Below the pieces are notes generated by a model. That model saw nothing but the letters and a program-made list of their open reading frames with translations, was not told where the DNA came from and ran no database searches. From an uncultured Spirochaetales bacterium (lineage in GTDB: Bacteria; Spirochaetota; Spirochaetia; Sphaerochaetales; Sphaerochaetaceae): a stretch of DNA of 55,564 bases. The stretch's first letter is position 1. Every line of letters starts with the position of its first letter. Of this stretch, positions 1,388 through 2,247 are shown in pieces. The stretch covers positions 1-55,564 of the forward strand of contig CASEAG010000007.1 of NCBI GenBank assembly GCA_949285785.1. Direction: 5' to 3'. Position numbers and translations under genes: made by a program.

Positions 1388-1498
1388 ATGATGAAAAGAG
1401 CCTTCGATGCAGGTCTGCGGTTCCTGCGGATCTTGAAAGAGGTTCTCGGCCTGTTCAGGGATATGAAAGATCTCCGCCGTCCCAAAGCCAAAAGGTAA
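1388..1498 (+). CDS. 36-residue amphipathic basic peptide, copy A of a tandem pair
   Basis: A short frame that starts ATGATG and encodes MMKRAFDAGLRFLRILKEVL followed by GLFRDMKDLRRPKAKR. It has exactly the same length as the peptide at 1908-2018 and about 16 identical positions without gaps, including GLFRD and the RP.A.R end. Residues 5-25 could form an amphipathic helix with a basic tail, as in small membrane-active peptides and type I toxins. Its ribosome site (AGCGAAGGAT) is weaker than that of copy B. It is followed after 22 bases by the 206-base repeat. I recognise no named family. Role as a toxin is inference. Confidence 0.55.
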   Translation: MMKRAFDAGLRFLRILKEVLGLFRDMKDLRRPKAKR

Positions 1499-1520
1499 GC
1501 GGAGATGATCCAAATTTCTT

Positions 1521-1726
1521 GAGGCCGCCGTCTTGCTGGCGACTCTTCGTATGGCAATACTACAACCCGATCAGACAGTCAATCAATGTCACGTGGCAAA
1601 GGGGGAACGTCACCCGTTAATGCGGAAGCCTATTGTTCACCGCTCTTCCTCCTTCTCCACAGTGGGCAGGGGGAAGTCCTTGGCGCTCAGGGTACGTATG
1701 TCATCTTCATCAGGATTTCCCTCATG
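1521..1726. repeat. 206-base conserved block, copy A (candidate structured RNA)
   Basis: This block matches 2042-2247 over 206 bases without gaps and with about 15 mismatches by eye. It starts GAGGCCGCCG and ends CTCATG, and lies 22 bases after the stop of peptide A. The first 75 bases hold only two differences. It has no convincing gene: a shared frame (PPSCWRLFVWQYYNPIRQS) ends in copy A but stays open in copy B. The block is better conserved than the peptide genes before it, so it is likely a functional RNA such as a 3' untranslated region, an antisense antitoxin, or a mobile repeat. The remaining 180 bases up to peptide B hold nothing I can name. Confidence 0.7.
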
Positions 1727-1907
1727 CAAAAACGTCCGGCCTGCCTCGAAGAACATGTATGATGGATTCTTATCCGAATCCGTCTTGCACGCTGTCAGCA
1801 TGTTCTGGTAGTGTTTCCCAGTCGCCAGCAGATGACAGACGGTGGCCTCTGGACCTGCAGAGGAAGAGCAATCTTCCTAAACCACTGCAGGAAAGGAGGT
1901 GAAGGAT

Positions 1908-2018
1908 ATGATAAAAGCAGTACTTGAAGTGATTCTTGTACTCCTGAAGGTTCTCCGAGAGATCTTCGGCCTATTCCGGGATAACAAAAATTCCCACCGT
2001 CCGAACGCCAATCGATGA
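1908..2018 (+). CDS. 36-residue hydrophobic basic-tailed peptide, copy B of a tandem pair
   Basis: Paralogue of the peptide at 1388. It encodes MIKAVLEVILVLLKVLREIF then GLFRDNKNSHRPNANR. Residues 4-23 form a strongly hydrophobic stretch, long enough to enter a membrane. It has a near-perfect ribosome site, AAGGAGGTGAAGGAT directly before the ATG, which argues that it is translated. The conserved 206-base block starts 23 bases after its stop. Size, hydrophobic helix, charged tail, tandem copies and a conserved RNA block next door are the usual picture of type I toxin-antitoxin modules (Ldr, Ibs, Fst type), but no named family is recognised. Confidence 0.65.
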   Translation: MIKAVLEVILVLLKVLREIFGLFRDNKNSHRPNANR

Positions 2019-2041
2019 GTGGGAATAGAAACCATTGATCT

Positions 2042-2247
2042 GAGGCCGCCGTCTTGCTGGCGACTCTTCGTATGGCAATATTACAACCCGATCAGACAGT
2101 CAGTCAATGTCACGTGGCAAAGGGGGAACGTCACCCGTCAATGCGGAAGCCTATTGTGCGCCGCTCTTCCACCTTCTCCACTACGGGCAGGGGGAAGTCT
2201 TCGGCGATCAGGGTACGTATGGCATCTTCATCATGATTTCCTTCATG
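2042..2247. repeat. 206-base conserved block, copy B (candidate structured RNA)
   Basis: Second copy of the block at 1521-1726, in the same orientation and the same distance from its peptide gene. A possible long-range stem joins ACCCGATC near base 45 with GATC-A-GGGT near base 165; copy A keeps only part of it. The opposite strand of both copies carries a short frame M(R/K)EI(L/M)MKM(T/P)YVP, too short to judge. Bases 2248-2394 hold the leader of the binding-protein gene, with an AGAAC/GTTCT hairpin around 2269-2282 and no promoter I can assign. Confidence 0.7.

Follow-up and report, generated by a model that had tools for sequence, protein, structure and literature searches.

Tandem units at the locus

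The window (the whole stretch of DNA analysed here, 55,564 nt from an uncultured Spirochaetales bacterium) contains two tandem 36-codon genes at 1388-1498 and 1908-2018 on the plus strand, each followed by a 206-nt block. The original prediction described this layout accurately. The gaps between stop codon and block are 22 and 23 nt, as it had given them, the two blocks differ, without gaps, at exactly 15 positions (about 15 had been counted), and the two peptides are 44% identical (about 16 of 36 residues). At the nucleotide level the genes agree at 69 of 111 positions (62%). The blocks lie within a direct repeat of 212 nt (1520-1731 and 2041-2252), which is 92% identical and has a spacing of 521. 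Of the 15 block mismatches, the first 68 nt hold two and the remaining 138 nt hold 13. In the source genome (2.05 Mb) the block matches only these two places, with E-values of 2e-107 and 3e-84, which rules out a chance similarity.

The limits of the module are not those first drawn, namely a gene plus its 206-nt block. In relatives, conservation ends about 65 nt into the block, and on the other side the conserved unit starts about 120 nt upstream of the gene, which is also where copy 2 is extended. The order of parts in this unit is a sigma-70-like promoter, a 5' arm (GTCGYCAGCAGATGACAGACGGTGGCCTC), a leader hairpin, a Shine-Dalgarno (SD) sequence, an ORF of 34-36 codons, a hairpin at the stop codon, and a 3' arm (GAGGCCRCCGTCTTGCTGGCGAC). 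A promoter on the opposite strand reads back into the gene.

Organization of the two copies

Judged by its sequence, copy 2 (about 1785-2107) is a complete unit in which all parts are present. Its predicted sense promoter (1785-1814, plus strand) consists of a -35 hexamer TTGCAC (1785-1790), an 18-nt spacer and a -10 hexamer TAGTGT (1809-1814), and +1 is expected near 1821. The 5' arm (1821-1849, plus strand), GTCGCCAGCA-GATGAC-AGACGGTGGCCTC, would form the start of the mRNA and pairs with 2042-2064 in the minimum free energy (MFE) fold, a pairing that covaries over 58 copies. Part of this arm (GGCCUC) could in addition base-pair with the SD. The MFE fold further contains a leader hairpin (1854-1891, plus strand; CCTGCAG-AGGAAGA-gcaa-TCTTCCT-aaacca-CTGCAGG) just upstream of the SD; in the alignment of relatives its shape is kept and its stems differ. 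The SD itself (1892-1900, plus strand), AAAGGAGGT, is strong and conserved in the alignment. It precedes the candidate toxin ORF (1908-2018, plus strand), which encodes the 36-aa peptide MIKAVLEVILVLLKVLREIFGLFRDNKNSHRPNANR and is supported by pN/pS and profile matches. The stop-codon hairpin (1990-2026, minus strand) is formed by ATTCCCAC (1990-1997) and GTGGGAAT (2019-2026), and on the minus strand TTTTGTT comes after it, where the antisense RNA is predicted to end. The 3' arm (2042-2064, plus strand), GAGGCCGCCGTCT-TGCTGGCGAC, is complementary to the 5' arm, and the promoter scan places the antisense promoter, TTGACT-18-TAATAT, at 2078-2107 on the minus strand. From these positions, two RNAs are predicted: a toxin mRNA of about 250 nt (1821-2073, plus strand), which is based on the fold and has a predicted 3' end, and an antitoxin RNA of about 85-90 nt (1983-2071, minus strand), which is placed by its promoter and terminator.

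Copy 1 retains the antisense end of the unit. Its ORF (1388-1498, plus strand) encodes the 36-aa peptide MMKRAFDAGLRFLRILKEVLGLFRDMKDLRRPKAKR. The stop-codon hairpin (1470-1506, minus strand), ATCTCCGC/GCGGAGAT, has an identical stem in four other loci (L004, L006, L015, and L068). The 3' arm (1521-1543, plus strand) is an exact pattern match, and the antisense promoter (1557-1586, minus strand), TTGATT-18-TAGTAT, is weaker and stands in the same register as in copy 2. Conserved sequence begins a few bases upstream of the ATG of copy 1, and a search for the family promoter, the 5' arm, and the leader found none of them in this copy.

Pairing of the mRNA ends

The predicted sense RNA (1821-2073) folds with -106.2 kcal/mol, compared with a mean of -71.2 kcal/mol for shuffled sequences (z = -7.1). 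In the MFE structure its first 29 nt are bound to its end by 23 base pairs. Such end-pairing is common to the family, since at least 15 end pairs are present in the MFE structures of 78 of the 82 RNAs folded, some of which are near-duplicates. Divergent copies have the arms GGCACTGC...GGCGGTTGGC / GCCAGCCGTC...GGCAGTGCC. Across the 20 indexed pairs of 58 distinct copies, 93.4% are standard pairs, and 14 of the 20 pair positions have Watson-Crick changes on both sides. When 3' arms are permuted between copies, none of 5000 permutations reaches the observed covariation; the same result (0/5000) is obtained inside subfamily B, while subfamily A, to which the window belongs, is too uniform for a separate permutation. 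Pairs were indexed and their covariation counted in Python, as a cross-subfamily MAFFT alignment of both arms misregistered the outer stem. Cognate arm duplexes average -42/-46 kcal/mol, compared with -26 kcal/mol for cross-subfamily and -20 kcal/mol for shuffled duplexes. Fold and covariation together show that the 5' and 3' ends of the mRNA pair.

Facing promoters and the predicted antisense RNA

Promoters are found at fixed positions outside both arms. On the sense strand, 47 of 68 copies have their best -10 hexamer upstream of the 5' arm with 6-7 nt between its end and the arm, and the mean promoter score is 9.28 (7.69 for shuffled sequences). The alignment consensus is TTGAAG-17/18-TAAGAT, and the hexamers of the window (TTGCAC and TAGTGT) are weaker. 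On the antisense strand, the end of the best -10 hexamer precedes the 3' arm by exactly 13 nt in 53 of 85 copies, and the mean score is 10.2 (8.0 for shuffled sequences).

Of 84 copies, 83 have a stem of at least 6 bp close to the stop codon; 52 distinct stems occur, many with a T-rich tail on the minus strand. According to this model, the hairpin and its tail would end an antisense RNA of about 85-90 nt. A generic terminator scan reports no terminator at this hairpin because the loop is too long for the scan. The predicted antisense RNA opens with the complement of the 3' arm, i.e., with the sequence of the 5' arm of the mRNA, and spans the last ~11 codons of the gene. Counted over the whole family, the subfamily A patterns find 36 3' arms and 26 5' arms; the excess might hint at orphan antitoxins that have been retained, in a count where the 5'-arm pattern misses arms with indels and contig ends truncate many copies.

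Interpretation as a probable type I toxin-antitoxin module

It is probable that the units of the window form a type I toxin-antitoxin module and represent a new superfamily. The original prediction had proposed a type I toxin-antitoxin repeat family. This guess is well supported by the anatomy of the unit and by comparison with related loci. The weak sense promoter of the window and the lack of a match to known toxin families above cut-off speak against it. Its reasoning, which started from a structured RNA in the block, is not, since the block does not behave as a structured RNA (see below) and is mostly specific to the locus.

In the proposed mechanism, the sense promoter would produce the ~250-nt mRNA for a short, amphipathic, basic peptide of membrane type, the putative toxin. 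The facing promoter would produce the ~85-90-nt antisense RNA, the putative antitoxin, whose span would take in the last ~11 codons, the hairpin at the stop codon, and the 3' arm. While the mRNA is still being made, its 5' arm (GGCCUC) would mask the SD and keep translation off. The 3' arm, once made, would capture the 5' arm, by which the SD would open and translation would be turned on. Since its 5' part has the sequence of the 5' arm, the antisense RNA would compete for the 3' arm; by taking it in place of the 5' arm, it would leave the SD closed, and the duplex of antisense RNA and mRNA would be a target for a double-strand RNase (RNase III).

The computed cost of opening the SD is 4.0/5.7 kcal/mol in the full RNA (subfamilies A/B), 5.9/8.0 kcal/mol without the 3' arm, and 5.4/7.8 kcal/mol when the antisense region is masked. 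With the 3' arm removed, the SD is mostly paired, either with the 5' arm (61% in A, 41% in B) or with the leader. Paired ends open the SD by about 2 kcal/mol on average; the effect is larger than 1 kcal in 46 of 64 copies and opposite in 5. If the arm pairs are shuffled in such a way that end-pairing is kept and the match to the SD is destroyed, the effect is lost (+2.12 vs +0.16 kcal/mol, 26 of 30 copies; p = 1e-6, which is optimistic as the copies are related). The differences in SD opening energy amount to only 1-3 kcal/mol, and several copies (L008, L013, and L019) show no switch. These models suggest that the structure of the toxin mRNA is conserved and that it controls access to the SD. 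The specific switch, in which end-pairing opens the SD and the antisense RNA closes it again, is a serious candidate on these energies, with the balance tipped slightly against it. With somewhat more hesitation, we suggest a general RNA frame on which toxins may be interchangeable, in which the antitoxin would be a molecular copy of the 5' end of the mRNA, and whose logic would be the reverse of that in hok and aapA.

Prior cases count against an inverted switch, because the end-pairing of both aapA and hok closes the SD (PMC6733600). A type I module with this conventional logic would have its full-length mRNA locked by end-pairing and activated by trimming of the 3' end, and the antisense RNA would destroy the trimmed form. 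The very stable and compact fold of the sense RNA would suit it, and sizes and plan match those of aapA3/IsoA3, which has an mRNA of 225 nt, an antisense RNA of 80 nt, and a 5'-3' long-distance interaction (PMC6733600). In the computed folds, however, it is the paired ends that leave the SD more open (in 46 copies, against 5, of 64), and trimming shuts the SD via the 5' arm. The conventional logic is unlikely to apply to these units.

Comparison with known type I systems

The aapA/IsoA systems of Helicobacter pylori have a toxin mRNA of ~225 nt with 5'-3' long-distance pairing and a cis antisense RNA of ~80 nt; they are multicopy on the chromosome, and their SD is masked during transcription (PMC6733600). 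The units described here resemble them in their multiple copies and in what is predicted for them, namely a short end-paired mRNA, a small cis antisense RNA, and masking of the SD during transcription. Whereas the toxin ORF of aapA/IsoA contains the antitoxin promoter, the predicted antisense RNA here would start beyond the 3' arm and copy the 5' arm of the mRNA; the pairing is predicted to open rather than close the SD, and the peptides are unrelated. The hok/sok system also has a stable full-length mRNA with 5'/3' end-pairing (fbi/tac) and a small toxin (PMC6733600). It differs in that the units described here have no mok-like overlapping frame and in that their predicted antisense RNA would cover the 3' end and not the leader; a search for sequence similarity to hok/sok found none.

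In Bacillus subtilis, the antisense RNAs of txpA/RatA and bsrG/SR4 are convergent with the toxin mRNA and overlap its 3' end. This arrangement is also predicted for the units described here, which are distinguished by their covarying end-pairing arms, by a putative antisense RNA that would mimic the 5' arm, and by other peptides.

A 2025 paper stated that, until its own cyanobacterial case, the known type I systems came from Proteobacteria, Firmicutes, and Tenericutes only; the narrow range is put down to searches that depend on known sequences (PMC12390103). The added case, msoT1/msoA1 of Microcystis, is a candidate type I system outside these three phyla (PMC12390103). It differs from the present units in being cyanobacterial, in being a single characterised locus, and in its unrelated peptide. 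In the open-access literature, no type I system was found for spirochaetes. The family described here would extend type I toxin-antitoxin systems to Spirochaetota and, if the interpretation is true, would give spirochaetes their first type I toxin-antitoxin superfamily. The regulatory logic suggested by the frame is open to testing by compensatory mutations. In addition, facing promoters, covarying arms, and a stop-codon hairpin make a search signature that is independent of sequence and could be used to find more systems.

Peptides on one RNA frame

The peptide of copy 2 has 36 aa, a net charge of +4, an amphipathic character, and a basic tail. For the subfamily of the window, pN/pS is 0.44 in the ORF frame, compared with 0.84 and 2.12 when the two alternative frames are read, which indicates that the 36-aa peptide is under coding selection. 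A profile built from 17 peptides has matches in two genera, in 28 of the 139 genomes examined from the same family. In a class sample of 395 genomes, it finds only three weak matches outside the family (G234, G359, and G400; E 0.003-0.009). The strongest of these, in G400, was rejected as it sits inside a longer reading frame.

The same frame carries other peptides. The 3'-arm pattern of subfamily B is found at 66 places in 33 of the 139 genomes, compared with 3 for the reversed pattern, and its exact matches in the class sample fall in only three genera, all of one spirochaete family. The short hydrophobic peptides encoded by the units, with good SD sequences, fall into at least four or five kinds: the type of the window; MVLDILLKLADLASRALSLVTAILLFINNRPSSGKH; LFDLIIKALEFLVKAVSLAAAIWSSINNRPKHPGK; MDDYQILMIVFTVIGLIIASRK, MTDFELLSLVISIISLVILVRKK, and MSDYEILSLVFVVIGLVLVAMDHDGNKKGRH; and MIEKILEVVFWSLKLLSASLDIISAVKKSRHAKPNH. 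Since several unrelated peptides are found on one covarying RNA frame, toxin and regulator appear to evolve as separable parts. We consider it likely that the units make up a previously undescribed family of miniature toxin-antitoxin systems in gut-type spirochaetes of three genera.

Comparison of the peptides with Pfam, NCBIfam, and PHROGs gave no known toxin family above cut-off, and the RNAs have no match in Rfam. Some peptides on the frame (e.g., MTDFELLSLVVSIISLVVIVRKK and MSDYEILSLVFVVIGLVLVAMDHDGNKKGRH) look similar to the holin-like toxins of Hol_Tox (PF16935). Membership was rejected, as the best Pfam score is 11.4 bits (cut-off 23.3) and is reached by one scaffold peptide, with none for the others; the peptides of the window show no similarity to Hol_Tox.

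The amphipathic character of the peptide and the lack of an obvious pore former would also suit a non-toxic small membrane peptide, for example one that modulates a stress response or a transporter, under antisense control. The interchange of unrelated hydrophobic peptides on one frame is more typical of toxin-antitoxin systems, as are the patchy distribution (28 of 139 genomes) and the presence of tandem and decayed copies, and a non-toxic role is rather improbable.

Further copies and insertions

Tandem arrays of units are common. In one of them (L140; G033:C5, 6700-9200), four tandem units carry two different peptide types. The source genome has two further copies of the frame, L138 (G000:C31, near 164276) and L139 (G000:C35, near 12155), in both of which the 3' arm is present and the 5' part is absent. 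The unit on C31 is truncated at its 5' side and keeps the C-terminal part of a different peptide, and the unit on C35 is decayed.

Units are dispersed, multicopy, and often located at contig ends, and their arms form an inverted repeat. They could accordingly be regarded as a mobile or miniature repeat, where the arms are terminal inverted repeats for a transposase encoded elsewhere and the peptide is incidental; the two ends of one such element would covary as well. Against this, the promoters are conserved outside both arms at a fixed distance, so that the confinement of conservation expected of an insertion sequence (IS) or MITE is not seen. Moreover, the peptide is under coding selection, the inner hairpin and the SD are conserved, no transposase is present in the units, and the arms are not found in viral contigs. 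A mobile repeat is very unlikely, and a toxin-antitoxin module remains the preferred reading of the units.

In several genomes, IS ends (IS3-like, of at least two different kinds) sit within the loop of the stop-codon hairpin, which looks like an insertion hot spot. Units split by an IS are represented by left halves (L074, L075, L077, L079, and L096) and right halves (L005, L012, L017, L149, and L151), often at contig ends.

The 206-nt block and the history of the two copies

The 206-nt block has matches in 21 of the 139 genomes from its family. These matches span only its first 25-70 nt, except in a sister species (G008), where the match is 95% identical. The phage, plasmid, and viral collections gave no match at the sensitivity used. 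Folded alone, the block is no better than its shuffles (z = -0.68), and it has no match to Rfam at gathering thresholds. Permissive Rfam scans gave chance-level matches away from the element, with the exception of a HEARO (IscB-associated) RNA-like match directly downstream of one element (L026, 1-155; G009:C21), which scores 53.4 bits (gathering threshold 83).

The first ~65 nt of the block are, from sequence comparison, part of the conserved element. The conserved content of the block consists of the antisense promoter and the 3' arm that takes part in the 5'/3' end-pairing. The distal two thirds are locus-specific DNA that was carried along by the 521-bp duplication. Although this tandem duplication is real, a recent segmental duplication that carries a novel class of structured RNA in the 206-nt block is hardly credible and, given the fold, the short conserved part, and the lack of an Rfam match, is refuted for the block as a unit. 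The structured RNA originally suspected in the block is likewise not supported. Lack of covariation and restriction to this locus, which the original prediction had named as signs against itself, describe the distal block and do not describe the element.

On the minus strand, the distal part of block 2 (2134-2253) encodes LVHEGNHDEDAIRTLIAEDFPLPVVEKVEERRTIGFRIDG*, and its counterpart in block 1 (1613-1729, minus strand) is 77% identical to it and contains one internal TGA. Over 37 aa, LVHEGNHDEDAIRTLIAEDFPLPVVEKVEERRTIGFRIDG* has 46% identity to the C-terminal end of an AAA+ ATPase-like protein (G012:C2), a weak similarity (E = 0.006 only). The distal block is therefore probably a gene remnant, and it probably includes what has decayed from the 3' end of an AAA+ ATPase gene on the minus strand, coding for its C-terminus.

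The higher conservation of the non-coding part had been taken to mean that the RNA or the DNA is what is kept and that the peptide genes have drifted. It is instead an artefact of a mosaic history, as the two copies share their downstream DNA by duplication while their gene bodies match different genomes. The gene of copy 1 is 92-96% identical to copies of the G046/G071 type, and that of copy 2 is 95-99% identical to copies in G008 and G075. Since the two genes match those of other genomes so closely and each other at only 62%, their difference is due to replacement by recombination with another sub-lineage and not to drift.

In the sister species G008, a single fused unit (L101; G008:C6) is present, with the upstream DNA of copy 1 and the body of copy 2. 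This arrangement is consistent with loss of one 521-bp unit by recombination at the shared GAAGGATATGATgAAA, at the start of the peptide gene.
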